Positions 889 to 39,806 of a DNA stretch of 40,933 nt are shown one piece after another. Source of the DNA: a virus. Positions within the stretch are counted from its first letter, which is position 1. Every line of letters starts with the position of its first letter. The notes beneath the pieces are model-generated. The model saw only the letters and a list, made by a program, of their open reading frames with translations. It was not told the DNA's origin and made no database searches. The translations under genes were made by a program, and so were the position numbers. The stretch lies in IMG/VR virus record IMGVR_UViG_3300031673_000170, positions 1 through 40,933 of that record; one strand, written 5' to 3'.

Positions 889-2172
889 CTACTTCGTTAC
901 CGTTAATTGGAAGTCCGTTGTTGCAACGTTGCGGCCTTCGGCCTTGAACTGCTCAACGAGGTCATCTTTATCAAAGGAGCAGCGGGACATCAAGGCTGCG
1001 CGCGCGCCTTTTTCGAGCGGCTCATTGATGGCAGCTTCGATGGCCCTGTCCAACAGGGCAGCGTCGTCTCTGGGCAGGGTTGGGGCGATCTCGGCAAATT
1101 TTTCTGCATCTACGAAGAGACCGTCTTCGGCGCTGACAGCATCGGAGAATTCTTTACCGAGCACCTCCGATATTTTCTCGAGGGGCAGATTGGCAATCAC
1201 CCCGAGCGGATACACTTGACCCGTGGTTAGCCTGACGTGACTTTCAAGGATGGATTGGGCTTCCTTTTCAAGCACGTCAAAGAACAACTCTTCAGGCATG
1301 TCAACACCCTGGTGATAATACCGGTGGAGCCCGGCTTCACGATCGGTGTAATCGATCACGGCCGCGAGCTTTTGATACATCGCAGGCGTAGCCGCTTCCA
1401 GTTTGGATAGCGAGAGGGCAATGTTCGCCAGTTTCGTTGCATGATCTTTAAAGCCAGGCTGGCCTTTGAGCATGATCACTCTGCGGGCCACCTTTTCAGC
1501 GGCTTGCAGCGGATGCGTTGTTCCGAACCCAGAAGCTCGTTCAAGGTATTCAAGCGTATCGGTGTCAAAATGTGTGGTGCCCAGGGCCGCCCCGGCAATC
1601 TTTTCTCCGCGCTTGGCCTTCTCGTTGTAATAGATGGCCTCCTTCAGAATCCGGCGTGCGGCTGCCTTACGCCATTCGTAGGGGTATTTGGATCGATCGG
1701 CGTACAAGCGCTCACCAGCCATCTTTACAGCAAGCGGGTTGGGCATGGGTAAGCGTCGAACCTTGTTTCCGTCCCCGGTGGTCATGACCATGGCGAACTT
1801 TTCGTCAGGGAGGCTGTCCACGTCGAACTGAGCGGTCTTTCTGTGATTCTGGTTGAAGGTATCGACAAGACTTGCTATCTTCCAATAAGCAGCAAACTTG
1901 GTGATCCTGTCTTGAATGAAAGCAGCTTCTTTCTTATGGTAAGCGTCGCGGCATTGGGCAAAGTAGGCATTCGCAAGCCAGGTGGCCGCTTTCGTGTGGC
2001 ATGGGAATTTGCGTCTGGAGACGTCAGCGAATACATTGGAGTGCAGCTTGTCGATGGCGGCTTTTTCTTCAACGCTTGCACTCTTGACGAAGTTCGGTAG
2101 TCCGAAGAGCCGATTGATTGCGTAGAGGTGTTGCTGGTTTACGTCGTCGTTAAAGTCAACAGGATTAAACAT
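889..2172 (-). CDS. Unknown phage protein, about 427 residues, probably virion-associated
   Basis: A mostly helical, soluble protein with no signal peptide. A GTG at 2178 is in frame, but it lies inside the GGAGGA ribosome-binding site; the ATG at 2172 is seven bases from that site and is the better start (MFNPVDFNDDVNQQHLYAIN). Residues around 40-80 hold a conserved-looking patch (KFPCHTKAATWLANAYF). The C-terminal half has regular charged helices. It ends with TAG at 889-891. The start codon overlaps that of the divergent plus-strand gene at 2171 (CATG at 2170-2173). It heads a minus-strand block of three genes. I do not recognise the family; a capsid-associated or internal virion role is a guess from position. 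Confidence 0.8.
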   Translation of the reverse strand: MFNPVDFNDDVNQQHLYAINRLFGLPNFVKSASVEEKAAIDKLHSNVFADVSRRKFPCHTKAATWLANAYFAQCRDAYHKKEAAFIQDRITKFAAYWKIASLVDTFNQNHRKTAQFDVDSLPDEKFAMVMTTGDGNKVRRLPMPNPLAVKMAGERLYADRSKYPYEWRKAAARRILKEAIYYNEKAKRGEKIAGAALGTTHFDTDTLEYLERASGFGTTHPLQAAEKVARRVIMLKGQPGFKDHATKLANIALSLSKLEAATPAMYQKLAAVIDYTDREAGLHRYYHQGVDMPEELFFDVLEKEAQSILESHVRLTTGQVYPLGVIANLPLEKISEVLGKEFSDAVSAEDGLFVDAEKFAEIAPTLPRDDAALLDRAIEAAINEPLEKGARAALMSRCSFDKDDLVEQFKAEGRNVATTDFQLTVTK

Positions 2173-4849
2173 GCCCACTCCTCCAAAGGACTTAAGTCGG
2201 CACTTCGGTCATGAAGTGATCCTAGCTTCCGCCGACATAAGCGTCAAGGGTGTGCTCCCCGAGGTGACACTGTGTCCCTTCTGCCATCATGAGAGCCTCT
2301 CAATTTACATGGACCCCATTATAGGGGAATCTTCTCGTTGGTTGCACTGCGGAATTTGTGGATTTCGTGGCGACACCCTGGAAACCTTGGCCAAGTTGCG
2401 GCATTCTGAGAATCTGTATGAGGCCATCAACGTCGGGCTCCGGGAAGGGCTTTGCGACACCACAAGCGGAACGTTTGACGCTGATACGATTGATGGATAC
2501 ATACGGCATTACCCCGAACGACGCAATGAAATCAATAACGCATGGGACAAATTCAGGTCCACCATATCAGACAGGCCCTCGCCCGACATGGTAAAACGTA
2601 TCCAGGACGAAAATTTGTGGGGCGGGTGGCTGAACAATTCGCAGGATCGTTTGACGAGATTCGTGGGCGGCGGGATGCGTAGGGAAGTCAATCGAGAACT
2701 CCAAAAACTGTTCTTTGTTCGAAACAAGCAGCTCCCTCAACACGGATACCGAACCAACCTGATTCTTGGTTACCAGGATACCCCGGGCCGCATCTGCGCT
2801 TTTGAGTTTCTCGGTGAGACCGAACGAAGAATAGCCACCATTGCCCACGGAAACAATAACGACGCAGACGAGGGTGGGCTGGGGATGTTGGAAGCCCTCA
2901 TGCCCTTTGAGAGCAAGGTCTTTGCTGTGGGCGATCCAACCATGGCCCTTCAGCTTCACCGCAGGCACTTCTCAACGTTCAGAGATCCTTTGAAAGTCAT
3001 CCTCTTTAATCAAAAGACAAAGCGGTCCTGGCAATCCGTGCATGCGGACAAAGTTATTTTATGGAACAACGGGATAGACTGGAAGATCTTCGATCACGCC
3101 AGGTGCATTCCCAACCATCGTAAAACCGTATACGTTGCAGCTCTGCCAAATATTTCGAAAGAGATCTGGCAATACATGTCCAACGAGCCGCTCAGCGTGG
3201 TCTTGGAGCGCATGGAGAATTACGCGCTCCCCTGGCCTGAGGCCTTTGTGCGCTGGATCACTGATAAGGACATGCCGTCTGCTACAGTGCATGCCGCCAT
3301 CGCCAAGCTGGGGTTTGACGCCTCGGAACGGCGTTTGCTGTTTGATCGTTGTCCGCGCGAGCTGAAGCCGCGGCTGGACCACTACATGAGCGAGGATTCC
3401 TCGGTCCAGTCGGTGTTCATAGGCAATAAGAACGTGGTTGAGCACGAGGACGGCTGGTACGTGACTCATAGTCTCCGGGGCAACGAGCTTATCAGCGACG
3501 CCACCGTCCGTGTGTTCAAGGAGATCTCCGATCCCGAGCGCGGGAAGGTATTCTGGGAAGGGGAGATTCGTTATAAGGGCCGGGCCGTAGAATTTACCGA
3601 CGACATTGAGAACATCGAACGGGACAGCCTCAAGTGGTTGCGTGAGCGCATGACGCGGGCTGGCCTGGGGATGCCCATGTTCCAGCATACGTGGAAGCTT
3701 CATTTTATCCACATGGCCAAGATCTTCAGCGCGCCCAAGCCGGTGACGATTTCATCCAAGGTGGGGCCGCGCAAGGATGGCAGCATTGTATTCCCCCGCT
3801 TCAGGCTTGAGAATGGGTGCGTTGCCGACAAGCAGGAAATGGTCAATATGGAGGGTATCCCCGCTTTGAGGGTTTCGCCGCCTGAGCTGCGGCCAAAGAT
3901 TGAGGGAGATAAAGGTTCATACGTGAAGGCCACCTATGCTGCCATATCGGCTGCGGTCATCTCCAATTGGCTGAAGAGCATGCGTGGGAGCGTGATTGCC
4001 CCCATCGCCCTCGTGGGAAGCGTCCAATCGTCTGCCTGCGTGGTTGGCCGGCGTTTCGCAAAGAATGCGGGCATGAACATGTTCGTCGTATCCGATCCCA
4101 AGTACCGGCGAAGGGAGCTTGTCACCGTAAGGGAGCAGCTGCGGGACGATTACCCTTCATATATCGAATCCATATCCGCAGGCCTGTTACAGCATTACCC
4201 GACGGCGAATACAGATCTGGTCATTCTGGCCGTTGAGCCCAGCGAAGCCGCGGCGCTTGCCACCGGTGGCAATTGGATCTTTGTGCATGCCCCCAAGATG
4301 CCCGATGAAGATGTGATTCCCCCGTTTGACGATTTCCTGCTTTATCTGATGGATCTGCAAAAGCGGGATTACGATCTGCCTGGCGGCGACTGCACGGTTG
4401 GATTGGTTTTGGATGACTTTGCCGCGTGGTACAGCACAACAATGGGTTTCCCGAAGGCGGAGCTGGATAACAACCTTAAGGGCATGCTCAGGCTGCCGTT
4501 ACATGCCGGCGACCAGATGCTGGCGCTTGCCTTTTCACTTCACCGCGAGGATCTGCTTCCAGCCGAACACCAACCCTTCGTCGAGTCTCTTGAAAAGCAT
4601 GGGACGATAGGCGCTAGCCGATTTGGCATTCTCATAGATGACGAGCGTGACAAGGTGTTCATTTCATTGCCAACTATGAAGAAGGTGATTGACCGGGCAA
4701 GATATCCAATGCCTGACTTTGCCGAGGTGAGCCGCGACCTGGCGGCGCGCGGGCTTTTGCTTGAAACGGATTACCCTGGCGATGGGTGGGTGGTTGATAA
4801 ATCGTACTGGGAGGCCCAGGTAAGGGGTTGGCGGCACAACAAGTTGTAA
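2171..4849 (+). CDS. Zinc-finger primase/helicase-like protein with degenerate ATPase
   Basis: An 892-residue protein. Residues 35-63 form a primase-type zinc finger (C35-P-F-C38 ... C60-G-I-C63). Around residue 250 a TOPRIM-like strand follows (SKVFAVGDPTMALQLHRRHF). The middle, about 420-560, resembles the domain that precedes the ATPase in phage primase-helicases (WYVTHSLRGNELISDATVRV; GKVFWEGEIRYKGRAVEF). Near residue 610, where a Walker A would be expected, the sequence reads ALVGSVQSSACVVGRRFAKN and has no GK[ST], so ATPase activity looks lost or very diverged. The start has AGGA six bases upstream. A separate primase is encoded at 34690, so this is the second primase-like protein here. 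A nucleic-acid role is likely; the exact activity is unknown. Confidence 0.8.
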   Translation: MPTPPKDLSRHFGHEVILASADISVKGVLPEVTLCPFCHHESLSIYMDPIIGESSRWLHCGICGFRGDTLETLAKLRHSENLYEAINVGLREGLCDTTSGTFDADTIDGYIRHYPERRNEINNAWDKFRSTISDRPSPDMVKRIQDENLWGGWLNNSQDRLTRFVGGGMRREVNRELQKLFFVRNKQLPQHGYRTNLILGYQDTPGRICAFEFLGETERRIATIAHGNNNDADEGGLGMLEALMPFESKVFAVGDPTMALQLHRRHFSTFRDPLKVILFNQKTKRSWQSVHADKVILWNNGIDWKIFDHARCIPNHRKTVYVAALPNISKEIWQYMSNEPLSVVLERMENYALPWPEAFVRWITDKDMPSATVHAAIAKLGFDASERRLLFDRCPRELKPRLDHYMSEDSSVQSVFIGNKNVVEHEDGWYVTHSLRGNELISDATVRVFKEISDPERGKVFWEGEIRYKGRAVEFTDDIENIERDSLKWLRERMTRAGLGMPMFQHTWKLHFIHMAKIFSAPKPVTISSKVGPRKDGSIVFPRFRLENGCVADKQEMVNMEGIPALRVSPPELRPKIEGDKGSYVKATYAAISAAVISNWLKSMRGSVIAPIALVGSVQSSACVVGRRFAKNAGMNMFVVSDPKYRRRELVTVREQLRDDYPSYIESISAGLLQHYPTANTDLVILAVEPSEAAALATGGNWIFVHAPKMPDEDVIPPFDDFLLYLMDLQKRDYDLPGGDCTVGLVLDDFAAWYSTTMGFPKAELDNNLKGMLRLPLHAGDQMLALAFSLHREDLLPAEHQPFVESLEKHGTIGASRFGILIDDERDKVFISLPTMKKVIDRARYPMPDFAEVSRDLAARGLLLETDYPGDGWVVDKSYWEAQVRGWRHNKL

Positions 4850-7838: not shown

Positions 7839-7976
7839 ATGAAAGGGCCAGTACACATTAAGGTTCCGTTGGACAAGGTCATGGCCGAAGTTGAGAAGGC
7901 CATGGCTGCGAGGCGCAAGTTGGGGCTCACGAAGAAGTCTCCGGAGGCAGCTAAAAAGGAAGTGAAAAAGAGTTAG
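7839..7976 (+). CDS. Small basic protein of 45 residues downstream of the structured RNA
   Basis: The ATG at 7839 follows GGAAAGGAGAAAGAC, a strong ribosome-binding site. The product starts MKGPVHIKVPLDKVMAEVEK and ends in a lysine-rich tail (TKKSPEAAKKEVKKS) before TAG. The middle is a short amphipathic helix (AEVEKAMAARRKLGL). There is no signal or membrane segment. It is flanked on both sides by highly structured sequence and probably shares a transcript with the 23S-like RNA upstream. A small RNA-binding protein would fit its charge, but no family is recognised. It ends with TAG, which the phage's own suppressor tRNA (24315) could in principle read. Confidence 0.7.
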   Translation: MKGPVHIKVPLDKVMAEVEKAMAARRKLGLTKKSPEAAKKEVKKS

Positions 7977-8294: not shown

Positions 8295-10118
8295 CTATGA
8301 CAGGGGAATGGGATTTGGTGGGCTGGCGAAGCGCAGCTGCTCTGCCGTCATTTTGATTCCCTGTACAGACGACAGATCCGGGTAGCTTTGCTCCGTGTGA
8401 TAAATAGCCATGAGCCCGTAGTTGAGGGCGTGGGCAAAGTCATCGGTTGATTTTGGCCGCTTGCGGATCAGATATATATCGGATTTGCCGGGCGCCTCAT
8501 GCTTGTCTTCGAGCAGGTTGAGCAGGTCGTGGGTGACGTTCTTGCTGCTCTCGTATTCAGGCAAAAGCACCATGCCGGTTTTGATGGTGGTGGCTTGCAA
8601 TACGAGGCTGCGGGCTTTATCCAATGAGTAAAAGCCTCGCATCTCAGCCCGGTGCGGCGGCGTGTAATAGATGATATTCCGTGTTGACGCGCTCACGTAT
8701 ACGAAGTTGATGATGAGGTTGACGGGAAATCCGGATTGAATCAGGAGGGTTTCACGGACCGACCCTGACCCGCCATAGTCATGTGCCACGAAATGACAGG
8801 CCCCCTCCCGGAACAGGTAAAGGACGCGTTTGACTTCTTCGTCGTGGGTATACCCGGCATGAAGTCGTTCGCAGTAAAAGCACTTGTAGAGCCCGTCGGC
8901 CGGATCCAGGCCTACCATGGCGACTGTGGTGAATGAGATTTCTTCTTTGCCGCCACCGCCCCAGTCTATGCCCAGAACGCGAACCTTGCAGCGGCGGAAA
9001 CCATCGATGGCTTTTTCGAGATCGTTCGGTGGAAGTTTGGAGGCGCGCTGGATGTCGGTTAAGGTGATGAGGTGGATGCCTACGTCGGCGGATTCACCCA
9101 GCACCTCGTTGAGGTATTTTTGCGGGCTATAGCCGCGTTTGCCGTCGCGCTTGGCCAACAGATCCAACCACTTGTCCTCGTTGGCATAATGCATGGGCAT
9201 GATGACCTGCGGAACGTGGTAACCGGGAAAGGTGTGACCTTTGCTGATATCGGTGTGGTACCAGTGCCCGTTTCGAGGATCCAGTGGTCGCTTACATTTG
9301 GCGCATACGACCGTATGCCGCCCTACCATGTTGTGCAGGTCCTCGTGTATGGAGGCCATGTTCCACTTGCCGCAGGCATAGCAAGGGGTGACCCATTCCG
9401 CCTTTGAGGAGTCCTGCCACAGCGCTTCGATGGTGTTATCGAGCGTTTTGGGCGTGCCCGAGTAAAAAGACAATCCCAGCGACGAGGCAGACATGCACTC
9501 GTGGATGATGGGAACGAAGTCGTAATCTATATCCTGTACCTCGTCGAAATTGATAAGGTCGCAGGAGACGCCGCGAACGCGGTCCACATCTAGAAAGGCG
9601 AAGGAAAATATCATACTGGCCTGGTTTGCAAACGTTCTTTGCAGCACGGCCTTGGATGTGTTCTCCCCGATGAGCAAGGGATTGATCAACGATTGCGTGA
9701 TGAAAGGTCGCACGTAGTTGCTGGACAATCGCTTGATCTGTTCAAAGCGGGGAGTCACAAAAAGCATTTGGAGAAAGGGGGAACCTGCGCAACGCAGAAC
9801 TCCGCTGGCGGCCAAGGACGTCGATTTGGAAACCTGACGACCGCATTTCCACAACATTTGTTTGGGCAGTTCAAGTTTGAAGATGGGCTCAAACGGGAAG
9901 TGATTCTCGAGATTATAAGCTCTACCTCTGAGGCTGAGCATTCCGAGAAGCGGTATGAAGGAAGTCAATTCGTGCGTAGCGAAGTGCTCTTGCGCAGCTT
10001 GTAAAATTTCAGTTGCCTTGAGCTGTTCACCGTTGGCGTGTCTGTGACGCAATGCCTCTATCTTCGATAAACGGGCGCCGTGGTCGGCGTCAGCAACATG
10101 TAGAGAGGAGTTAATCAT
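8295..10118 (-). CDS. terL: Terminase large subunit
   Basis: A 607-residue motor and nuclease that packages phage DNA into proheads. The ATPase half shows a Walker-A-like GRQVSKST (residues 93-100), a Walker B with catalytic acid (CDLINFDEVQD, D192-E193) and a coupling motif (YSGTPKT, about 219-225). A zinc ribbon follows (C246, C249, C272, C275). The RNase-H-like nuclease has acidic residues in GIDWGGGG (D385), AHDYGG (D447) and DDFAHALNYG near 570. The ATG at 10118 abuts the ATG of a divergent plus-strand gene (CATATG), with AAGGA about ten bases upstream. It ends in TAG at 8297-8295. No small subunit is recognised in the window. Confidence 0.93.
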   Translation of the reverse strand: MINSSLHVADADHGARLSKIEALRHRHANGEQLKATEILQAAQEHFATHELTSFIPLLGMLSLRGRAYNLENHFPFEPIFKLELPKQMLWKCGRQVSKSTSLAASGVLRCAGSPFLQMLFVTPRFEQIKRLSSNYVRPFITQSLINPLLIGENTSKAVLQRTFANQASMIFSFAFLDVDRVRGVSCDLINFDEVQDIDYDFVPIIHECMSASSLGLSFYSGTPKTLDNTIEALWQDSSKAEWVTPCYACGKWNMASIHEDLHNMVGRHTVVCAKCKRPLDPRNGHWYHTDISKGHTFPGYHVPQVIMPMHYANEDKWLDLLAKRDGKRGYSPQKYLNEVLGESADVGIHLITLTDIQRASKLPPNDLEKAIDGFRRCKVRVLGIDWGGGGKEEISFTTVAMVGLDPADGLYKCFYCERLHAGYTHDEEVKRVLYLFREGACHFVAHDYGGSGSVRETLLIQSGFPVNLIINFVYVSASTRNIIYYTPPHRAEMRGFYSLDKARSLVLQATTIKTGMVLLPEYESSKNVTHDLLNLLEDKHEAPGKSDIYLIRKRPKSTDDFAHALNYGLMAIYHTEQSYPDLSSVQGIKMTAEQLRFASPPNPIPLS

Positions 10119-10277
10119 ATGAGTCTAATCCTTGGAGTGCTGGGTGGGATGGCTGCAGCTTTGGCGATGACTTTCATGAAAGTTTTCACCACGGCGTTGA
10201 ACGTGCTTGTGGTCGTGGCAGAGATTTTGGCCAAGATCGTCGTAGCAAGAGTTCAGTCCCGCGCGATGGCATTTTAG
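10119..10277 (+). CDS. 52-residue hydrophobic membrane peptide
   Basis: The ATG at 10119 has GAGGAG eight bases upstream, inside the terL coding sequence. The product starts MSLILGVLGGMAAALAMTFM and continues with TTALNVLVVVAEILAKIVVA, then ends SRAMAF. It is one long or two short membrane segments with few charges. Size and hydrophobicity are compatible with a small holin or another membrane effector, but no charged C-terminal tail typical of many holins is present. It is divergent from the terminase with touching start codons, so expression of the two may be mutually exclusive or co-regulated. It ends with TAG. Confidence 0.65.
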   Translation: MSLILGVLGGMAAALAMTFMKVFTTALNVLVVVAEILAKIVVARVQSRAMAF

Positions 10278-12303: not shown

Positions 12304-12891
12304 ATGTCGGCCAGATCAAGGAGATTGAGAATGAAACATGTGTCGCCAGAAGGTTTCAGTATACGTAGTACCGGAGAGACGTATGGCGCCATCAAAACGG
12401 TGCGCCGGCCTGAGGAGGTTGGGCCAGGGTGGGCGCTGATTGAAATCGTCTACGAGGACGTGTTTGAAGGCGGCTCGATTGACGTGCCTGTTTATACCGA
12501 AGGCGGCGGGTCGGGTTGTACGGGTTATTGGTCCAGTCAGAGCCTTGGCGTAAAGGCGATGGCCAGAAAACCCCTGTTTGTAATGGGGCACTTGAGGGAT
12601 AAAGAAATCGAAGAGCTTAAATCACAGCTGGAGTCTGAGCAGCATGCCCGCGGCAAAGCTGAGAGGACGGCACAGGAGTTTACAAAGATGGCCAACGACA
12701 TCCACGTCATCAATCTTAAGTTGGAGAAGCAGAGAGCCGAGCTATTGGGTGAGCTGGCAGAGGCCCGTTCGGCCTTGAGAAATACAGAAGAAAAATGCAG
12801 GCTCATGGAAAAGCACATCGGAAAAATCAGGGACGAGATTGGCGTCATGCGAATGAAGGAAATTCTGGGCATCCAGGAGCTGATGCTGTGA
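12304..12891 (+). CDS. Coiled-coil protein of unknown function
   Basis: A 195-residue protein; AGAGGA lies seven bases before the ATG, and it starts three bases after the previous stop. Residues 1-95 look like a small beta domain (KTVRRPEEVGPGWALIEIVY; SIDVPVYTEGGGSGCTGYWS). Residues 96-185 form a clear heptad coiled coil rich in Glu, Lys and Leu (EELKSQLESEQHARGKAERT; AELLGELAEARSALRNTEEK). The stop overlaps the GTG of the nucleotidyltransferase gene by four bases. It probably dimerises or trimerises; the partner is unknown. Confidence 0.75.
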   Translation: MSARSRRLRMKHVSPEGFSIRSTGETYGAIKTVRRPEEVGPGWALIEIVYEDVFEGGSIDVPVYTEGGGSGCTGYWSSQSLGVKAMARKPLFVMGHLRDKEIEELKSQLESEQHARGKAERTAQEFTKMANDIHVINLKLEKQRAELLGELAEARSALRNTEEKCRLMEKHIGKIRDEIGVMRMKEILGIQELML

Positions 12892-13361
12892 TATTACGGG
12901 GTCCAAATGACTTGCGCAGCTGGCGCTCGGCTGTAGCCGAAGCCGGGTTGCGCATTCTATTTACCAACGGCTGTTACGACATTCTCCATGCCGGCCACGT
13001 ACGCTTCTTCGAGGCGTTACGCGGCCGGTATAAGAAGATCGTGTTGTTGGTGGCGCTAAATACGGATGCTGGCATAACCCGGTTGAAGGGGCCTGCGCGT
13101 CCGCTCAACACGCTGGAAAACAGGATGTGCGTTGTAGCCGCAAACAAATACGTTGATGCTGTTACCTGGTTTGACGAGGATACCCCGGTGTCGTTAATCG
13201 AATTGATCAAACCCGAGGTTCTTGCCAAGGGCGGTGAATATTCGTCCGTGGTTGTTCCCGGGGAACCGGAGGTGTTGGCTTACGGCGGCGAAGTCTGTAA
13301 GGACTTCTTCTTCCCGGGAATCTCGACGACCGGGATTGTTGACAAAATGTTGAAAGCTTAG
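12888..13361 (+). CDS. HldE/RfaE2-like nucleotidyltransferase (heptose-1-phosphate adenylyltransferase type)
   Basis: The GTG at 12888 overlaps the previous stop (GTGA), with AGGAG eight bases upstream. An in-frame upstream extension would read through the neighbour. The 157-residue product has the cytidylyltransferase-like HxGH motif (NGCYDILHAGHVRFF, residues 27-41), ARPLNTLENRM, AKGGEY and the C-terminal GISTTGIVDK motif (ISTSS-type). This is the order found in RfaE domain II / HldE-C, which transfers AMP to heptose 1-phosphate for LPS core. Related enzymes make CDP-glycerol or FAD. In a phage it could alter host LPS or make a sugar nucleotide. The substrate is not provable from sequence. 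Confidence 0.85.
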   Translation: MILRGPNDLRSWRSAVAEAGLRILFTNGCYDILHAGHVRFFEALRGRYKKIVLLVALNTDAGITRLKGPARPLNTLENRMCVVAANKYVDAVTWFDEDTPVSLIELIKPEVLAKGGEYSSVVVPGEPEVLAYGGEVCKDFFFPGISTTGIVDKMLKA

Positions 13362-13397: not shown

Positions 13398-13574
13398 GTG
13401 TCCAAGGCCCAGCCAAGAACGTGTGTGAAATGTCTACATTTTAAGAAGGACACGATTGAGGTTATTAGGTTTGAGCAGAAGTGGACAGAGGACAAAAACC
13501 TCAGATGTGGGCTTGGAGGTTTTGCCGTAAAAAAGATGGCGACGTGCAACTTATGGTCGGACGCCAGCTTTTAG
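13398..13574 (+). CDS. Small four-cysteine protein
   Basis: The frame is open from TTG at 13362, but that codon has no ribosome-binding site; GTG at 13398 (AGGGG three bases upstream) gives MSKAQPRTCVKCLHFKKDTI. Cysteines occur as C-V-K-C, then C in NLRCGLGG and C in MATCNLW, spacing that could bind one zinc ion. About 58 residues, basic. It follows the nucleotidyltransferase directly. No family is recognised, and the start is uncertain. Confidence 0.55.
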   Translation: MSKAQPRTCVKCLHFKKDTIEVIRFEQKWTEDKNLRCGLGGFAVKKMATCNLWSDASF

Positions 13575-23408: not shown

Positions 23409-23483
23409 GTGCTTGGACGTGGGCGCGCTGTACCGCTCATCCCGGATTTCGCGCCTACGTTCCGGCACCAAAGGAGAAATAGC

Positions 23484-24314
23484 ATGGGAGACAAAGCATT
23501 ACTGGTGGGAATCAACGCCTATTCCGGCGCGCCTTTGAGTGGGTGCGTTAACGATTCCTCGGATTTTGCCGAATACCTCGCGAGCCCGTATGTAAAGTTC
23601 AAATATGATAACGTGCGTATGCTCTGCGACGAGCGGGCCACGACGCAGGCTATCCTGGAAAGGCTTGAGTGGCTTGTGGACGTCGGCCCAGGTGATCGCT
23701 GCTTCTTCCATTACAGTGGGCATGGCGCGCAATATCCGTCCAGGGATTACAAGCAGGAGCTGGACAACATGTTGGAGGTTATTTGCCCGGTTGACTTCGA
23801 TTGGACGCCTGAGCATCTGATCACCGACAAGCAGTTTGTGGATATCTTTTCTAGAATCCCAAAAGGTGTACGGTTCAACTGGGTTAGCGACAGCTGTCAT
23901 TCAGGTGATCTTACGCGCGATATTGGCACGGCCCCTGCATTGTTGTTGGAAGGGGTTAAGGCAGAGCCATGCCCGAAGCCACGTAGGCATCCAGTGCCTG
24001 CTGACATCGCCTGGCGCATGCGCGGGGCCAAGAGCCGTAATCTCGCTGCTACAGACCGCGGCATGGTCTGCGGTAAGTTGGATGTTGGATTCATCTCTGG
24101 TTGCCGTTCCGACCAGACCTCCATGGATGCCTGGTTTAACGGCCGGCCTGGTGGGGCTCTGACGCAGAACTTGCTTAGGGTGCTTAAGGCCAACAAGACG
24201 TCAATGCCGCTTCTTCGAGTTGTGGCGCTGACGTCAAAAGCGTTGAAGACGGGTGGGTTCTCCCAGACTCCTCAGTGCGAGGGTGCCCGGGCTAAGAAGG
24301 CGTTTTTGGGTTGA
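23484..24314 (+). CDS. Caspase-like cysteine protease (metacaspase family, C14)
   Basis: A 276-residue protein; AAAGGAGAAATAGC precedes the ATG at 23484. It opens with the family start GDKALLVGINAY and SGCVNDSSDFAEYL. The catalytic pair is His80 (FFHYSGHG) and Cys138 (VSDSCHSGD). The substrate-pocket acid region DFDWTPE is present, and the C-terminus has GGALTQNLL. All key residues of an active metacaspase are kept, and there is no signal peptide or prodomain. Bacterial caspase-like proteases act in defence and cell-death pathways. A phage copy could cleave a host effector, mature a phage protein or be a decoy. The tRNA gene begins two bases after its stop codon begins to be followed (24315). 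Confidence 0.88.
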   Translation: MGDKALLVGINAYSGAPLSGCVNDSSDFAEYLASPYVKFKYDNVRMLCDERATTQAILERLEWLVDVGPGDRCFFHYSGHGAQYPSRDYKQELDNMLEVICPVDFDWTPEHLITDKQFVDIFSRIPKGVRFNWVSDSCHSGDLTRDIGTAPALLLEGVKAEPCPKPRRHPVPADIAWRMRGAKSRNLAATDRGMVCGKLDVGFISGCRSDQTSMDAWFNGRPGGALTQNLLRVLKANKTSMPLLRVVALTSKALKTGGFSQTPQCEGARAKKAFLG

Positions 24315-24387
24315 GTCTCCGTAGCTCAATTTGGCAGAGCAGCGGATTCTAAATCCGTGGTTGCGGGTTCAATTCCTGTCGGAGACA
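24315..24387 (+). tRNA. tRNA with anticodon CTA (amber suppressor)
   Basis: A full cloverleaf: acceptor GTCTCCG/CGGAGAC (perfect), D stem GCTC/GAGC, anticodon stem GCGGA/TCCGT, loop TTCTAAA (24347-24353), variable GGTT, T stem GCGGG/CCTGT with loop TTCAATT, discriminator A. The 34-36 bases are C-T-A, which reads UAG. The sequence resembles phage arginine tRNAs whose loop is TTTCTAA; a one-base shift would turn TCT into CTA. CCA is not fully encoded (ACAT follows). The charged amino acid cannot be read from sequence; G1-C72 and A73 do not match the E. coli glutamine set. It lies directly after the caspase-like gene. Confidence 0.9.
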
Positions 24388-24391
24388 CATA

Positions 24392-24919
24392 ATGTCAATC
24401 AGAGCAGAGACTGAATGTGCGCTCATACATCTTTGTCACCTGGTACTGGCACATCCTGGTGGCCCGCCCGATGAAAAAGACTGGGATGTTGTATTTGACA
24501 AGGCGTCTGCTGCGCTTTCCCTTCTTCAGGCCGAAGAGCGAAGAAAGGAAAATGGCGGCGGCCATTTTGATGGCGAAACCTATAACCCGGCGCTCGACTA
24601 CGATCGTTTGAAGAAGCAGCTTGGCCGTGTGTTCAATTTGATGGCCGACGGCAAATGGCGGACGCTTGGTGAGATAGCAGCTGCGCTGGCGGACCCGGAG
24701 GCCTCCGTGTCTGCCAGGTTGAGGGATTTAAGGAAGCCGAAATTTGGAAATTACAAAGTACCGCGCAGGCGCCGGGGTTCCGTTAAAGCGGGCTTGTGGG
24801 AGTATTGTCTGTTATCCCCATCCGGTGATGGGGTTGCCGCACTGGCGCCAGCCCAGGAAACAGAAAAAGGGGTAACGCATGGCGAATTTAGAAAAAGTAA
24901 TGTTGTCAATTTCGATTGA
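24392..24919 (+). CDS. Winged-helix DNA-binding protein
   Basis: A 175-residue protein starting five bases after the tRNA. The N-terminal helix bundle (LIHLCHLVLAHPGGPPDEKD) is followed from about residue 85 by a winged helix: LMADGKWRTLGEIAAALADP, then EASVSARLRDLRKPKFGNYK and a basic wing (PRRRRGSVKAGLWEYCL). This type occurs in phage regulators and replication proteins. The C-terminus overlaps the next gene by 41 bases. It may regulate the RNA/anti-defence cluster. Confidence 0.7.
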   Translation: MSIRAETECALIHLCHLVLAHPGGPPDEKDWDVVFDKASAALSLLQAEERRKENGGGHFDGETYNPALDYDRLKKQLGRVFNLMADGKWRTLGEIAAALADPEASVSARLRDLRKPKFGNYKVPRRRRGSVKAGLWEYCLLSPSGDGVAALAPAQETEKGVTHGEFRKSNVVNFD

Positions 24920-25382
24920 TCAGTGGTTCGAATATCACGCCCCGCATGGCGATCAGGCTGTGCGTTACGAAAAGCTCAGGGCGAAGGGGAAGGAGCTGGC
25001 GGAGATGATCCAGGAGTTGTGCCCGGAGTCTGAAGATCGGCTTGTTGCGATCCGGAAGGTGCGTGAGGCAATCATGACGGCGAATGCAGCTATCGCTTGT
25101 TCTGATCCCGCTGATGTGGGGGTCGGTCCCACGGGTACGTTCGGCGTCGTTGTTAAGCCCGAAAATGATGTAACGGACATTGAAAATACTCCGTACGTGG
25201 CCGTTGGTGCAGATGAACTCGGCAAAGCTGGGTCGTTGGGGGATGTCTTTGACTGCCCTAAATGTAAGTGTGCGCACAAGATCACATCTTCAAAATCTGA
25301 GAATGGGTCGAGTTCGCTTGAGACATACGATTGCAGCGGTAAGACCTACATGATTGGCATCGACGGGAAAAAGATAAAATAA
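24879..25382 (+). CDS. Acb2-like anti-CBASS domain fused to a C-terminal zinc ribbon
   Basis: A 167-residue protein. Residues about 12-75 match the Acb2/Tad1-type helical hairpin domain: QWFEYHAPHGDQAVRYEKLR, then LAEMIQELCPESEDRLVAIR and KVREAIMTANAAIAC. In known phages Acb2 is a hexamer that binds cyclic oligonucleotides and blocks CBASS immunity. The remainder is longer than usual: a linker and a cysteine cluster (DCPKCKCAH, C126-C131; later YDCSGK), probably a zinc ribbon. An added nucleic-acid or protein contact is possible. It sits between the wHTH gene and the tmRNA. The assignment is from pattern memory. Confidence 0.72.
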   Translation: MANLEKVMLSISIDQWFEYHAPHGDQAVRYEKLRAKGKELAEMIQELCPESEDRLVAIRKVREAIMTANAAIACSDPADVGVGPTGTFGVVVKPENDVTDIENTPYVAVGADELGKAGSLGDVFDCPKCKCAHKITSSKSENGSSSLETYDCSGKTYMIGIDGKKIK

Positions 25383-25432: not shown

Positions 25433-25799
25433 GGGGCCGACTTAGATTCGACGTTGTGTGCGGAGGATACAGGGGCAGATCGCGGTTGGGTAGTTGGCCG
25501 CGTTAACAAGCTACCCAAACAACAAGTGCCAACAACAAAGTTGTTGCCGGCAACTTCGGCGCAAGCCGGATTGCCCTCGCAGCCTAACCAGCTGCGGGTA
25601 AAATCGCCAGCGCGCCACTGATTCCCGGCAAACGCTGGAAGGTCCAAAGGGGATCGGACTGATGGATAGACATCTGACGGCGGCCAAAGGCCGTTGACAC
25701 GAGCGTCATCTCGGCGGAAAGACGAAACGATGACTAAATCTGTAGGCCCTGTGTTTTAAGCCATAGCGGACTTGGGGGCAGATCCCAACGGCTCCACCA
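25433..25799 (+). ncRNA. ssrA: tmRNA (transfer-messenger RNA)
   Basis: The 5' end GGGGCCGACTTAGATTCGAC carries the conserved ATTCGAC, and the 3' end CGGCTCCACCA pairs with it: GGGGCCG/CGGCTCC with the G3-U70 wobble typical of alanine charging. The T arm is TTGGG/CCCAA with an unusual loop GGCAGAT. Pseudoknot 1 is clear (GCGG/CCGC and GGGTAG/CTACCC, about 25476-25516). The tag frame starts at the resume codon GCC (25528) and ends at TAA (25585-25587): ANNKVVAGNFGASRIALAA. The ALAA end is the usual protease signal. tmRNA rescues stalled ribosomes. The phage copy encodes CCA. Confidence 0.93.
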
Positions 25800-25820
25800 A
25801 ACTTACTTAGGAGGTCAATC

Positions 25821-25829
25821 ATGTCTTAG
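25821..25829 (+). CDS. Two-codon minigene ATG-TCT-TAG with strong ribosome-binding site
   Basis: AGGAGG (25809-25814) lies six bases before ATG-TCT-TAG, 22 bases past the tmRNA end. Reading past the TAG gives NKWDHPP and TGA at 25851-25853. That TGA overlaps a GTG (25850) opening a 10-residue frame SFLAGLQIT. In phage lambda, two-codon bar minigenes cause peptidyl-tRNA drop-off that is toxic without peptidyl-tRNA hydrolase. Here a Pth2-like gene lies 0.8 kb away, and the stop is UAG, which the phage suppressor tRNA could read. It may be a leader or a decayed gene instead. Confidence 0.4.
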   Translation: MS

Positions 25830-25906
25830 AACAAATGGGATCATCCGCCGTGAGCTTCCTGGCTGGCCTTCAGATCACTTAAACCAACTTCAAGGAGAGA
25901 TTAATC

Positions 25907-26416: not shown

Positions 26417-26699
26417 GCAGGTTAGCTTCCATGGCCAGAAACCACATGACAAATGGGATGATGCCGTCTATATCGCGGAGACCGAGATCATCGCGATTGA
26501 AGTTTGCATTTATCGTATCAACGATTCATTTACCCGCGGTTCTTCTGTTCGTTTGCGTAACGGGCAGCGTTACCGCGTTTGTGAGAAGGTTGAGCAGGTG
26601 GCCCAGATGATGGAGAAGTTTAATGAAAGTCTATGTGATTGTAAGAAAGGATCTGGAACCTGCTCAACAGATCGTGCAGGCATGTCATGCCGTTGCTGA
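26388..26699 (+). CDS. Small FlbD-like unknown protein (103 residues)
   Basis: GTG 26388 with AGGA about ten bases upstream. The core reads ETEIIAIEVCIYRINDSFTR followed by GSSVRLRNGQRYRVCEKVEQ, a two-strand pattern like the FlbD/YlzI family of small proteins. The C-terminus (CDCKKGSGTCS, GMSCRC) runs 77 bases into the next gene, so part of it may be dispensable. A competing ATG at 26413 in another frame is less protein-like. Function unknown. Confidence 0.55.
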   Translation: MLKLRRAADEQVSFHGQKPHDKWDDAVYIAETEIIAIEVCIYRINDSFTRGSSVRLRNGQRYRVCEKVEQVAQMMEKFNESLCDCKKGSGTCSTDRAGMSCRC

Positions 26700-26952
26700 G
26701 TTGTTCATGCTGCTTGGCCCCCATTCATGGTGGCAGTCGCTGCCTGAATGGGGGCGCGAGCACAAAACGATAGTCGTGTTGGGTGTCAAGAACGAGGTGA
26801 CGTTGGCTCGGTTTTGTCATTTCAAGCCTGAGTGGCTGGCGGTTGCAACGTTCAAGGAACCTGACATGGACAATCAGCTCACGGCCGCGGCCTGCGGGCC
26901 TGTACCTGACGAGTTGGCAGACGAGGTGTTTGGCAAGTTCAATCTTTTGTAG
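26623..26952 (+). CDS. Peptidyl-tRNA hydrolase 2 (Pth2)-like protein
   Basis: GGAG lies about seven bases before the ATG. The 109-residue product starts MKVYVIVRKDLEPAQQIVQA followed by CHAVAEL, the Pth2 pattern (V-V-R-x-D-L ... Q-x2-H-A). It continues with TIVVLGVKNEVTLARF, and the end AACGPVPDELADEVFGKFNL matches the Pth2 end IGPAP-x2-LIDEVTGHLKLL. The family frees tRNA from peptidyl-tRNA that drops off ribosomes. The active-site lysine of archaeal/eukaryotic Pth2 (K in KMxxGK) is not at its usual place (EPAQQ), as in other phage forms I recall. Adjacent tmRNA and minigene make a translation role likely. Confidence 0.72.
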   Translation: MKVYVIVRKDLEPAQQIVQACHAVAELFMLLGPHSWWQSLPEWGREHKTIVVLGVKNEVTLARFCHFKPEWLAVATFKEPDMDNQLTAAACGPVPDELADEVFGKFNLL

Positions 26953-28451: not shown

Positions 28452-29348
28452 ATGAGTAGCAGTGTACAGGTGTTAGCAGATAAAAATCTCATACAACCGC
28501 CAAAATGGTTACCGTTAAACGTACACTACGAAACCATCATGGGGTCCGTTGCTTACGGCGTGTCGAGTGATACATCCGACATGGATGTCTACGGTTTCTG
28601 CATCCCGCCGAAGGAAATCATCTTTCCGCATCTGGCCGGTGAAATACAGGACTTCGGCAGGCAGAAGAAGAGGTTCGAGGAGTTTCAGCAACATAGGGTA
28701 GTTTATGGGGATAAGACCTACGATCTGTTAATTTACAGCATCGTAAAGTATTTTTCGTTGTGTATGGAAAATAACCCTAACATGATCGATTCCCTTTTCA
28801 CGCCTGACAGCTGTGTTCTCCACATCAGTTCGGTAGGGCTTATGGTGCGGGAACAACGGCAGCTGTTCTTGCACAAGGGGGCCTGGCATAAGTTCAAGGG
28901 TTATGCCTACAGCCAGATACACAAACTGAAGAATAAGAACCCGGCCGGAAAACGTTTGGAGTTGGTTGAGAAGTACGGGTATGACACAAAATTCGCTTAT
29001 CATACGGTTCGACTGCTAAACGAGATTGAGATGATATTGTCTGAGGGTACTTTGGATTTGCAGCGTAATCGGGAGCAGCTTAAATCGATTCGGCGTGGCG
29101 ATTGGAGTGAACAGGCTGTTCTTGATTATTTCAGTCAGAAGGAATTAAGTTTGGAGGGACTATATCAGTCCAGCAAACTGAGACATGGTCCTGATGAGGA
29201 GGCGATTAAGGCCTTGTTGCTTAATTGCCTGGAGCACCATTACGGCAGCCTTGACAAGTGTGTGGTCAAGGTTGGTGTAGCCGAGTCTTACTTAAATGAG
29301 ATCACCGCGGTTGTTGACAGGTGGAGAAATACGGGGAGATCAACGTGA
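28452..29348 (+). CDS. RlaP-type nucleotidyltransferase
   Basis: A 298-residue protein. The nucleotidyltransferase active site is MGSVAYGVSSDTSDMDVYG (about residues 30-48, GS plus D-x-D). It continues with YDLLIYSIVKYFSLCMENNP and NMIDSLFTP, the pattern of family RlaP (PF10127), often near RNA ligases in phages and bacteria. The C-terminal helical part reads YHTVRLLNEIEMILSEGTLD. The substrate is unknown; RNA end modification or repair is plausible given the tRNA and tmRNA of this phage. It ends in GTGA overlap with the next gene. Confidence 0.82.
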   Translation: MSSSVQVLADKNLIQPPKWLPLNVHYETIMGSVAYGVSSDTSDMDVYGFCIPPKEIIFPHLAGEIQDFGRQKKRFEEFQQHRVVYGDKTYDLLIYSIVKYFSLCMENNPNMIDSLFTPDSCVLHISSVGLMVREQRQLFLHKGAWHKFKGYAYSQIHKLKNKNPAGKRLELVEKYGYDTKFAYHTVRLLNEIEMILSEGTLDLQRNREQLKSIRRGDWSEQAVLDYFSQKELSLEGLYQSSKLRHGPDEEAIKALLLNCLEHHYGSLDKCVVKVGVAESYLNEITAVVDRWRNTGRST

Positions 29349-35789: not shown

Positions 35790-38700
35790 ATGTTCTTTCC
35801 ACAAATGTTTTCAAGAGAGCTGCCTGCGGATGCAAGTTGGAGTCCGGAGGCGGAGTCATTTTACCCACTGACACACACATATGAATATGCTGCCAACGAG
35901 CTTGGCTTTTCAGATGCGCATGAGTTGGCGCAGGTTCTTCTTTATCAGCCAACGGAGATGCCGGTGCCGGACGGGACGGGGCTCGGGTTTCGCAACGTGA
36001 CATGGTTGCCGGCCAACCATTACGGCTCCGGGGCCTTTGGGCCGCGGGCTCGGCCTGAGGTGATGGTGATTGGCAAGATGCCCGGCACAGAGGAAATACA
36101 GCAGAAGCGCAACTTCGTGGGAAGGTCCGGGGAGCTGTTGCGCAAAGTTGCCGAGGATGTGGGGTTGAACGTAAATGATTGGCATTGCACGAACACCGTC
36201 AGGTTTCTTCCCGCTGACGGCGGCAAGTCGCTGAAGCCGTTTCATGTTCGAGACTGCATGTCTTTGCTTGCGCAAGAGATCAGCCTGTCCCGGCCCAAGA
36301 CGATACTGCTTACCGGCGCCGATGCGGTTAAGGCTGTTTTTGGAAAACATGCCACGCTCAGCAAGGTGCGAAGTTGTGTATTCGGGATGCCGGGCGTCGC
36401 GGGCCTGGGACACATGCCCTTGGAGATGCAGCGGCTTCCGGCTGATTTCGACGGGATCATGGTGCTGGCTACGATACATCCGGCGGCGGTATTGCGGGAG
36501 GCCGGATATCTCAATGGTTTCATCAAGGACCTGGAGTTGTTCCGTACCGTGCTGGGCGGCCAGACGGATTTCAAAGAGGTTGATCCGGATATGGCGGTGC
36601 TGGACACGGCTGAAGATGTTGAAGCGTTGGTTGAACTGATTTTGAGTGAGGGATACTCCAAGATAGCCGTAGACTGTGAATGGGGCGGCAAGTCTTATTT
36701 GGATGGGGTGTTACGTTCCATCCAGTTGTGCTGGCGTCCGGACGAGACGGCTGTGATTGTCTTTACCAGGGCCGGGAACGTGCCCGCGCAGGACGGGCCT
36801 GGCACGATCCGGATAAAGGAAGCGCTCAGATATCTTTTTGGGCATCCCCACATCAAGCTTATCGGCCACAACATGCGGGCTGACGCCAAGTGGTTGGGTG
36901 ATCAAGTGGCCAACGTAATCGAGAAGACTTGTTTCGATACGATGCTGGCTGACCACATTTTGAATGAGAACGCCGAGCACGGCTTGGACGCGTGCGCCAT
37001 ACGGTTTGCCGGCAAGGGCCGGTATGACCGGGCGTTGACGCGTTGGATGGATGAGGTGGGTTCTGAGGAGATAAGCAAGAACGGGTTCTTGAATGTGCCT
37101 GATGACATTCTTCATCCATACGGGGCCAACGACGTGGATGCTACGTTAAAGTTGGCAACCGTGATGGAAAGCATGTTGGCGCATCCCGGCAACCACCCGG
37201 TTTCGCGTTGCTTTTACGAGATCGTGATGCCGTGCATGATGCCCATTCACGAGATTGAGACCACGGGGATTGTGGCCGATCGTGAACGTATGGAGATGCT
37301 GGTGAACAAATATGCAGCCAAGCGCGACGAGCTGCTGGATAAGATAAGGACGGAGCTTACCCATATTTTTGGCGGTAATGCCGCGGTTGTAGCTGATTTC
37401 GAGCTTGGGGGTTCTGAGGACGATGCAGTCTGCGAGATAAGTCCTGAGCAGGTTGAACGCGCCAAGGCTTCGTCAGCTGCGCTTGCGGCTTTCAATCCGC
37501 GCAGTTACTTGCAGATGGAGAAGTTGTTGTTTGCCAAGCCGCCGGAAGGGTTTGGGCTCACGCCTTTGAAGACCACGGAGAAGCCGGCCCGGATGTGGGT
37601 CGATCTGGATCGTTTGTCCGAGGAGGAGATGCGGTTTATCAGCCCGTCCACGGATGCAGAGTCCATGGAGTTCATTGCGTCGCAGACGGATGAGCCTGTG
37701 GTCAAGTTGATTCAGGACTTCAAGATCATTGACCAGATGATCAAGATGTTTTTGCGTTTGCCGGAGGAAGTGGACGGTCGGCTTGAATATGTGGACGGGT
37801 TGATTGGCAAGATCGATCTGGATGGCAGGATTCGAACCACGATATCCCAGATGAGTGAGACAGGGCGATGGAAATCGTCCAATCCGAATTGTTTCGATCC
37901 GGAAGTCGAGTTGTTGACTTCTCACGGTTGGATCAGCGTTTGTGAGATTTATGAAGGCAGGCACAACCCGGTTGCCGTAGCTCAGATGGATGTCAATACG
38001 GGTGAAATCACGTTTGAGCTGCCGTTGGAATATCAACGAGTTGAAACAACAGTGATGGTTCGGGTTTTCACGGATAAGCAAATAGACCTGGTCATGACGC
38101 CGGATCACAGATGTCTGGTTTATACGCGCGAAATGGAACCGTGTTTTGTTTCCGCAGGCAATTATCCGGAAGATCACAAACAGCTCAATGCAGGTAGATA
38201 TGTGGGTGGAAACGTATCAATGCCTGAGAGTCAAATTGCGCTGATTTGTGCGCTTCAAGCCGATGTGCATGTAACGAAATGGGGAAGTTATGATTTCGGA
38301 TTCAAGAAAGCCAGAAAGATAGAGCGTTTGGAATGGGCTTTGAAAAGTCAGGGCATACACTTCAAGCGTTATGCCGGCAAGACTCGAACAAGATTTTACA
38401 TTTTCAGGGAGGATATACCTGACTGGTTCAAGCTTGTACCTCCTTGGTATCCAGGAAATCGACAGTTTGGTAGTTGGTTGTTGTCTTTGGATCGTGAGTC
38501 TTTATCCATGTTTTCAAGGGAGGTGTGGTTCTGGGGTGGTTGTTACAGACTTCAAAGCATGTTTGCTTCGAAAGACAGGATCAATGTTGATTGGGTTCAG
38601 ATAGTTTCCATCCTGTCTGGCAGACGCGCGAAGATCAGGAAGTACACGTACGGTGAGAATCTTGTTTTGTGGCAAGTGGACGCAACTGATCAGCGTTTCA

Positions 38701-39806
38701 GCATGACTACAAATAGGACGATTGAGTCTATACGCATGCCTGATGGCTACGCAGCATACTGCGTTACAATGTCTAAAGGAACAGTCATTGCTCGTTACAA
38801 TGGCCGGGTTCACATAACTGGGCAGTGTCAGAACATCCCAAAGAAGCAGGACAAACACATGAAGCGGATCATGGGCAAGGACACGCCCACGATCCGTTCA
38901 TGCTTTACGGTTCCAAAAGGCCACGTGATGATTGAAGCGGATTACAAGTCTGCTGAGATTTTTACGCTTGGTTATCTTTCGAATTGTATGAAGCTGGTGG
39001 AAGATGCCAAGAGCGATTTGCATGCGCGTGGTGCTGTGACGCGTCTGGGTGCGCCCAAGTGGGACGGGTTTGACGAGGGCTTGCCGCCTGATGACTTGTG
39101 GAAGGATACCTACAAGGCGCTTCGGGTGGCTTCCAAGACCATATCATTTGGCATTCCGTATCAGCGGGGCGCCAAGGCAATTGCGCGCGAGATTGTTAAG
39201 TCAACTGAGGGTAAGATGGAGTGCGATACGCAGCGAGCGCAGCTCTTCATCGACGGTTTCTACGAGCAGTATCCGGAAGTTCGTGATTACGTGGAAATGT
39301 GCAAGCGCGCGGTGACGTCGCCTGGATATCTCGAAAATCCTTTCGGAAGAAGGAGGAGAGCCTATGTAAACGCTCAAACAGACGAGAAACTCAAGGCAGG
39401 CTTGGAGCGGGAGTTTGTGAACTTCCCGATTCAGGCCACGGTTGCTGACGCGCTTAACAGAGCCGTTTTTAACCTGTGGGGTTACCGGAGACTGTATCCG
39501 GGTCAGACCCAATATAAGATTTTGTTGGCCATCCATGATGCTGTTTTGATTGAGGCGCCAGGTAGCGAGCTTGAGGTGCTTACAGAGAATATTATACCTC
39601 GTTGCATGGTTGAAGAGGCGCGTGTTCCATCCTGGGCCTGTACAGGATCTCAGTCGTTTTCGTTGGACATCGACATCGAGGTGGGTACTCGATGGGGTGA
39701 GTCGTGTACGGCGGCCGAGTTGAGCGGAGCAGGTGTTCCCGATTACCTCGTTGACAAGTTCACGTTGAAAAAAGGAGACGTACCGTGGGTTACAAAGAAG
39801 ATGTGA
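35790..39806 (+). CDS. UDG-like domain + 3'-5' exonuclease + family A DNA polymerase, interrupted by an intein
   Basis: A 1338-residue precursor. Residues about 90-250 resemble family 4 uracil-DNA glycosylase (GKMPGTEEIQQKRNFVGRSG; TIHPAAVLREAG). Residues about 290-460 are the exonuclease (IAVDCEWGG; LIGHNMRADAKW; YGANDVDATLKL). The polymerase part is split by an intein at 701-1012 within the conserved SSNPN/CQNIP motif. Motif A is EADYKSAEIF (about 1048), motif B KTISFGIPYQRGAKA (about 1115), motif C AIHDAVLIE (about 1248; HDA where HDE is usual). The spliced protein would be 1026 residues. A UDG-polymerase fusion is also known in SPO1-like phages. It is the replicative polymerase. Confidence 0.9.
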   Translation: MFFPQMFSRELPADASWSPEAESFYPLTHTYEYAANELGFSDAHELAQVLLYQPTEMPVPDGTGLGFRNVTWLPANHYGSGAFGPRARPEVMVIGKMPGTEEIQQKRNFVGRSGELLRKVAEDVGLNVNDWHCTNTVRFLPADGGKSLKPFHVRDCMSLLAQEISLSRPKTILLTGADAVKAVFGKHATLSKVRSCVFGMPGVAGLGHMPLEMQRLPADFDGIMVLATIHPAAVLREAGYLNGFIKDLELFRTVLGGQTDFKEVDPDMAVLDTAEDVEALVELILSEGYSKIAVDCEWGGKSYLDGVLRSIQLCWRPDETAVIVFTRAGNVPAQDGPGTIRIKEALRYLFGHPHIKLIGHNMRADAKWLGDQVANVIEKTCFDTMLADHILNENAEHGLDACAIRFAGKGRYDRALTRWMDEVGSEEISKNGFLNVPDDILHPYGANDVDATLKLATVMESMLAHPGNHPVSRCFYEIVMPCMMPIHEIETTGIVADRERMEMLVNKYAAKRDELLDKIRTELTHIFGGNAAVVADFELGGSEDDAVCEISPEQVERAKASSAALAAFNPRSYLQMEKLLFAKPPEGFGLTPLKTTEKPARMWVDLDRLSEEEMRFISPSTDAESMEFIASQTDEPVVKLIQDFKIIDQMIKMFLRLPEEVDGRLEYVDGLIGKIDLDGRIRTTISQMSETGRWKSSNPNCFDPEVELLTSHGWISVCEIYEGRHNPVAVAQMDVNTGEITFELPLEYQRVETTVMVRVFTDKQIDLVMTPDHRCLVYTREMEPCFVSAGNYPEDHKQLNAGRYVGGNVSMPESQIALICALQADVHVTKWGSYDFGFKKARKIERLEWALKSQGIHFKRYAGKTRTRFYIFREDIPDWFKLVPPWYPGNRQFGSWLLSLDRESLSMFSREVWFWGGCYRLQSMFASKDRINVDWVQIVSILSGRRAKIRKYTYGENLVLWQVDATDQRFSMTTNRTIESIRMPDGYAAYCVTMSKGTVIARYNGRVHITGQCQNIPKKQDKHMKRIMGKDTPTIRSCFTVPKGHVMIEADYKSAEIFTLGYLSNCMKLVEDAKSDLHARGAVTRLGAPKWDGFDEGLPPDDLWKDTYKALRVASKTISFGIPYQRGAKAIAREIVKSTEGKMECDTQRAQLFIDGFYEQYPEVRDYVEMCKRAVTSPGYLENPFGRRRRAYVNAQTDEKLKAGLEREFVNFPIQATVADALNRAVFNLWGYRRLYPGQTQYKILLAIHDAVLIEAPGSELEVLTENIIPRCMVEEARVPSWACTGSQSFSLDIDIEVGTRWGESCTAAELSGAGVPDYLVDKFTLKKGDVPWVTKKM
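37890..38825 (+). mobile_element. Intein in the polymerase gene (312 residues)
   Basis: Block A begins CFDPEVELLTSHGW (Cys1, residue 701). Block B is LVMTPDHRCLVYT (T-x2-H). Block F/G is TVIARYNGRVHITGQ followed by Cys+1 (extein CQNIPKK). The last intein residue is Gln and the penultimate Gly, rather than the usual His-Asn, a rare variant. The middle carries LICALQADVHVTKWGSYDF, resembling the first LAGLIDADG motif in degenerate form, so the homing endonuclease may be inactive. The insertion is inside the PNLQNIP motif of family A polymerases; precise splicing is needed for activity. Confidence 0.9.

Follow-up and report, generated by a model that had tools for sequence, protein, structure and literature searches.

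The tRNA gene at the centre of this study lies in the window, by which we mean the whole stretch of viral DNA analysed (40,933 nucleotides), and probably encodes a working amber suppressor that belongs to a widespread phage module, accompanied by a diverged PTH2-like protein and in several phages joined by a tmRNA; we put the probability of this reading at roughly 0.6. The original prediction was right that an intact suppressor resides in a phage using the standard genetic code, whereas its suggestion that the tRNA extends proteins past TAG found no support, and the tmRNA and PTH2-like genes, which it missed, are better clues to function than readthrough. Amber suppressors have repeatedly been reported in standard-code phages and left unexplained, and a conserved protein partner together with a frequent tmRNA offers a lead, open to testing, as to why a stop-reading tRNA is retained under a normal code. 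The tRNA-PTH2 pair is carried by the cultured phages Myrna, ME3, BF and Arash. Its study would give context to an uncharacterised phage family which the PTH2-like proteins match (phrog_1866 and phrog_3668), and would show how a virus may handle the side effects of reading stop codons.

ARAGORN calls a single tRNA in the window, a plus-strand tRNA(CTA) at 24315-24388, for which its designation "Pyl" is a mere label for the CTA anticodon. The Rfam tRNA model matches 24315-24387 at 64.4 bits (E 7e-12) with zero broken pairs, and the stems of the cloverleaf appear in the predicted fold, whose energy is -27.6 kcal/mol (z -3.0 relative to dinucleotide-shuffled sequences). In the sequence, the acceptor stem (GTCTCCG/CGGAGAC), D-arm (GCTC/GAGC), anticodon stem (GCGGA/TCCGT) and T-arm (GCGGG/CCTGT) all pair when G-T pairs are allowed. 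The anticodon stem flanks the seven-nucleotide loop TTCTAAA and thereby places C-T-A at positions 34-36, as had been proposed. The Arg anticodon TCT, which had been named as the finding that would overturn this assignment, fails, since the one-base shift needs the stem AGCGG/ATCCG, which is unpaired. Moreover, the 16-nt anticodon arm, GCGGATTCTAAATCCG, is present in 12 viral contigs and forms part of a real CTA tRNA in one of them, a 195-kb phage (L011/G008, hereafter G008) whose terminase is only 28% identical to that of the window. This recurrence in a distant phage disfavours chance or decay and, with the near-perfect stems, upholds the view of an intact amber suppressor that is neither decayed nor a misread tRNA-Arg.

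The nearest isotype of the window tRNA is tRNA-Lys by blastn, and anticodon-masked isotype profiles give Lys 47.4 bits against 38.6 for His, an 8.8-bit lead from a classifier that is only 69% accurate on known tRNAs. Insertion of Lys, with charging by the host LysRS, is thus probable on sequence grounds. Lys identity was rejected as a general rule: it applied to 16/31 tRNAs of the first set, yet the 58 groups of the PTH2-linked set include 19 of Lys and 17 of Arg type. The gene does not encode a 3' CCA (the discriminator A24387 is followed by CATAATG) and begins at the base directly after the TGA of a phage-encoded metacaspase gene (23409-24314; Peptidase_C14, 96.6 bits). The next ATG lies at 24392, five bases past the discriminator, and the sole good ribosome-binding site of the ORF starting there, GGAG at 24381-24384, sits within the 3' acceptor strand, so that excision of the mature tRNA and translation of this ORF appear to be mutually exclusive.

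Table 1. Features of the window at and downstream of the suppressor tRNA gene.
Feature	Positions	Strand	Basis
tRNA, anticodon CTA (amber suppressor), Lys-like body	24315..24387	+	ARAGORN, Rfam, RNA folding
tmRNA (ssrA-type)	25433..25799	+	Rfam RF00023, 123.4 bits, E 6e-48; aligned to five other viral tmRNAs
Predicted tmRNA tag ANNKVVAGNFGASRIALAA, then TAA (not TAG)	25528..25587	+	Sequence reading; position by analogy with other tmRNAs
PTH2-like protein, 109 aa, "EPD..TA" subfamily, ends TAG	26623..26952	+	Pfam PTH2, 44 bits; AF2; Foldseek
RlaP-type nucleotidyltransferase (RNA-repair-associated)	28452..29348	+	Pfam RlaP, 60.5 bits

The PTH2-like gene lies 2.2 kb downstream of the tRNA. The AF2 model of its product (pLDDT 89.8, built on a 10-sequence alignment of the window and viral loci) matches archaeal Pth2 (2zv3; TM 0.82, E 1e-8) and human 1q7s in Foldseek, with TM of about 0.8 and E of 1e-8 to 1e-6 across these matches. 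Together with a Pfam PTH2 score above the cut-off, this places the predicted structure in the PTH2 fold and the protein in the family. Although the fold is common to the ordinary enzymes and the window protein, alignments show that the active-site lysine and the DxGxT motif are absent from the latter, the lysine of GKxxAQ being replaced with a 2-residue deletion and EPD, with 5 residues deleted, standing in for DxGxT..PT. Nearly all PTH2-like proteins linked to suppressor tRNAs likewise carry the EPD..TA motif without the lysine and DxGxT, with the exception of one (G063), which is of the ordinary type. Since both elements are missing from the linked proteins, they may lack peptidyl-tRNA hydrolysis. 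Of six ordinary PTH2 genes (about 100 bits), five have no suppressor tRNA linked to them.

Linkage between the suppressor tRNA and the PTH2-like gene was observed across phages. All viral contigs were scanned with a DNA pattern of the EPD..TA motif alone, blind to tRNAs and not covering the window's own variant (EPDMDNQLTA), and a stop-suppressor tRNA was found by ARAGORN within 3.2 kb in 72 of the 94 resulting loci (71 CTA, 1 TTA). The tRNA is on the strand of the gene in 72/72 cases, at a median distance of 429 bp, and is the lone tRNA in 27 loci; the next commonest anticodon, CAT, occurs near 17/94. Clustering at 70% protein identity left 49 positive clusters among 56 informative ones. At 85% identity, the linked tRNAs divide into 58 groups that nonetheless retain CTA, so that a constant anticodon is combined with changing tRNA bodies. 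A broader CTA-tRNA pattern led to 26 contigs in which ARAGORN calls a CTA tRNA; ten of them contain a PTH2-like match, and in 10/10 cases a match lies no more than 3 kb from that tRNA, in many no more than 0.2 kb (combined p 5e-10, with some matches below the Pfam cut-off); the 16 contigs that have no such match count against the module reading. Six of ten reference phages picked by PTH2 similarity carry the pair, namely Arash, ME3, BF, LR756500 (an uncultured 462-kb phage), Lak-B7 and Myrna (also a member of the first CTA-selected set), and the flanks examined in XacN1, RAS14, AS-zj and EniLVp02 showed no suppressor tRNA near the PTH2-like gene. The two genes are 1.1 kb apart in G008. In the window alone, a spacing of 2.2 kb within 41 kb does not reach significance (p 0.13), and the case for linkage rests on the relatives.

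Some of these loci have features of their own. Two CTA suppressors are deposited under other names, that of Mycobacterium phage Myrna (L536, 5463-5534) as tRNA-Ser and that of Salmonella phage Arash (L007, 9298-9372) as tRNA-Phe. In one locus (L515, in G054), two distinct CTA tRNAs (177-254 and 1398-1474) lie within 1.3 kb of sequence, both to one side of a single PTH2-like gene, and Prevotella phage Lak-B7 (L534) has an ochre (TTA) suppressor tRNA (4341-4413) at 0.6 kb from a PTH2-like gene of the EPD type.

The window tmRNA, which ARAGORN did not detect, lies 1.0 kb downstream of the tRNA; it scores above the curated RF00023 cut-off, its acceptor has the G3-U70 pair and CCA, and its tag frame is open and terminates in ALAA-stop. 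Its T-loop (GGCAGAT), however, departs from the canonical type and is unlike the TTC-type loop of the five other viral tmRNAs, so that a functional tmRNA is likely but not certain and an altered or decaying one is possible. Directly after it, at 25821-25853, a ten-codon frame with a perfect AGGAGG (25809-25814) has an amber third codon (ATG TCT TAG AAC...) and could be a UAG-sensing leader or a product of chance.

A tRNA-CTA and a tmRNA are the sole tRNA-like genes in the window and in six other contigs (G008, G062, G044, G046, G052 and G039), the two being all that ARAGORN calls in the whole genome of G008 (tmRNA, 154 bits). Because RF00023 by itself overlooks permuted tmRNAs, the models RF01849, RF01850 and RF04321 were added. 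On this basis, tmRNAs above Rfam cut-offs were present in 12/26 CTA contigs versus 3/20 contigs of the same scan with no visible CTA tRNA (p 0.03), and inside the fetched locus in 4/25 versus 0/95 (p 0.0015). Some supposedly CTA-negative contigs (G084 and G080) carried CTA tRNAs, and ARAGORN overlooked CTA-like tRNAs in L211, L269, L271, L280 and L283; given CTA tRNAs among the initial tmRNA controls, the whole-contig association is only modest, and PTH2 linkage is much stronger. None of seven phage contigs chosen by tmRNA alone had a CTA tRNA, and the tmRNA is not an obligatory partner, since cultured phage DLP5 has a tRNA-Sup-CTA and no tmRNA. SmpB was absent from the 39 related viral records searched. 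Four of the contigs (G044, G046, G039 and G052; loci L195, L217, L228 and L255) carry a permuted tmRNA (RF04321, mostly also beta-type RF01850) and a single CTA tRNA, and very few of their genes end in TAG.

The mechanism that we infer for the module starts from its layout, a stop-suppressor tRNA on the same strand as a PTH2-like gene and in most cases no more than about 1 kb away. Probably charged with Lys by the host LysRS, the window tRNA would let ribosomes decode UAG during infection, and part of them would pass UAG at phage and host stops alike, leaving ribosomes at mRNA ends and dropped-off peptidyl-tRNAs. The former could be rescued by the tmRNA with host SmpB, and the PTH2-like protein may have peptidyl-tRNA as its target, perhaps the suppressor tRNA itself. 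The non-stop readthrough that nonsense suppressor tRNAs bring about is known to be dealt with by tmRNA (Ueda 2002, cited in PMC3985003), and peptidyl-tRNA is recycled by PTH enzymes (PMC10192219); in this light the tRNA, the PTH fold and the tmRNA form a coherent set for UAG reading plus clean-up. Candidate reasons for reading UAG are host take-over, independence from release factors and evasion of defences. More tentatively, at somewhat less than even odds, the module may represent an undescribed phage system that takes control of UAG in many standard-code lineages by means of a suppressor tRNA and a dedicated PTH2-derived protein (sometimes with a tmRNA), either through management of suppressor peptidyl-tRNA or through replacement of RF1-dependent termination.

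Parts of this arrangement have been seen elsewhere. In TAG-recoded phages (code 15; crAss-like and Lak phages), as in the window phage, a CTA tRNA is phage-encoded in a standard-code host, but neither the window nor its checked CTA- and tmRNA-bearing relatives are recoded, and the tRNA here is accompanied by a tmRNA and a PTH2-like gene. Closer parallels are Summit/DLP5 (Stenotrophomonas) and XacN1 (Xanthomonas), which combine a CTA tRNA with the standard code; the authors who described the cultured phages Summit and XacN1 could identify no target genes and left the amber suppressors unexplained (PMC9022506; PMC5852040). A partner of the suppressor is not named in either paper, in contrast to the tmRNA and PTH2-like neighbours in the window; the same PTH2-like subfamily does have a member in XacN1, with no tRNA called in the 10-kb stretch surrounding that gene. 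The ssrA-type RNAs of other large phages (Mycobacterium cluster C, Streptomyces Samistivirus, Stenotrophomonas Marzo) occur alone or among tRNAs, and the examples examined sit in large sets of sense tRNAs, whereas that of the window accompanies a lone suppressor. In the open-access literature, we found no paper linking a phage suppressor tRNA with tmRNA or with PTH.

With regard to the genetic code, the view that the window uses the standard one held, as long genes gain no length under TAG readthrough (mean ORF 280 versus 293 aa in a TAG-as-sense test of this 41-kb record of the genome, which does not qualify it as code 15), and treating TAG as sense brought no clear gain in any of 23 contigs. 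The TAG stops listed in the original prediction are real (889-2178, minus strand; 7839-7976; terL, 8295-10118, minus strand; 10119-10277). They are almost gone in some CTA lineages (raw counts, unadjusted for host background, of 1/124 in G044, 2/152 in G053 and 0/32 in G046), and TAG:TGA is 5:75 in the CTA lineages with permuted tmRNAs versus 13:32 in two CTA-negative contigs with permuted tmRNAs (p 0.001). Such scarcity agrees with real suppression in some lineages and is not proof of it. TAG stops are kept in G008 (38/184) and in the window (9/45 genes by heuristic gene calls), and with this many of them strong suppression is not evident in the window phage.

These counts bear directly on the proposal that the suppressor makes C-terminally extended or fused phage proteins, or recodes late genes as in code-15 phages. 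Such programmed readthrough is suggested by the TAG stops themselves, that of terL included, and by a coding-like extension of 70 codons that continues in frame after 13361; nevertheless, window extensions after TAG are no longer than those after TGA or TAA, and an all-frame search of the window and G008 for genes that are coding both before and after a TAG gave no convincing extended protein and no domain gained across TAG. The 70-codon extension, a Cys-rich frame that follows the TAG of a cytidylyltransferase gene (12795-13361) and ends in TAG-TAA at 13574, is probably a separate downstream gene. In G008 an in-frame gene follows 10/32 TAG genes versus 18/182 TGA genes, an enrichment that we rejected as readthrough because most of the downstream halves are adjacent cistrons that can start from a codon of their own close to the TAG. 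With ORF lengths unchanged, targets not found in Summit and XacN1 either, and lineages that have nearly lost their TAG stops, the opposite of using them, we regard this explanation as unlikely. About equally improbable is a form of alternative termination, whereby the suppressor enters at UAG and takes the peptide, and the PTH2-like protein then releases it, making host RF1 dispensable for UAG. It would require no target gene and would suit the tight, co-oriented pairing of a PTH2 fold with tRNAs whose common feature is a stop anticodon, yet the catalytic motif of the protein is altered, RF1 is normally present in hosts, and we know of no precedent for termination by a suppressor tRNA and PTH2.

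A role in counter-defence, in which the tRNA, tmRNA, RlaP and PTH2-like protein restore translation after attack by anticodon nucleases or other RNA-damaging defences and the Lys-like tRNA serves as decoy or spare part, seems slightly less probable again. The Lys-like body, the adjoining Acb2/Tad1-type gene and RlaP, an RNA-repair protein whose homologue in G008 lies about 1 kb from the tmRNA, fit this idea, and membership of RlaP in the suppressor module is itself uncertain. However, a CUA tRNA could not substitute for tRNA-Lys at Lys codons, the linked suppressors resemble several isotypes rather than Lys only, and it is the CTA anticodon that is conserved. The least probable explanation, and to our minds a very doubtful one, is that the tRNA is a passenger, a mutated host tRNA-Lys acquired by the phage and devoid of a role. 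While a single tRNA with no encoded CCA in a window that keeps its TAG stops is compatible with such an origin, the stems are near perfect, the same anticodon arm occurs in a phage with 28% TerL identity, and 58 diverged groups of tRNAs, all neighbours of a single gene family, have retained CTA.

For the window phage, blastn and single-protein scans returned no close relatives, and the nearest cultured TerL, that of Salmonella phage Arash, is 28% identical. The presence of a terminase, a DnaB-type helicase, a primase and a DNA polymerase identifies a tailed phage, and since phages of 180-187 kb are among its best terminase matches, the 40.9-kb record may be a fragment. The Acb2/Tad1 hairpin-domain protein (24879-25382; 50.7 bits) has a C-terminal extension of about 90 residues with a CPKC motif, and related genes are present in five other loci (L002-L006). 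The DNA polymerase gene (35790-39806) contains an intein-like insertion at about residues 700-1013.
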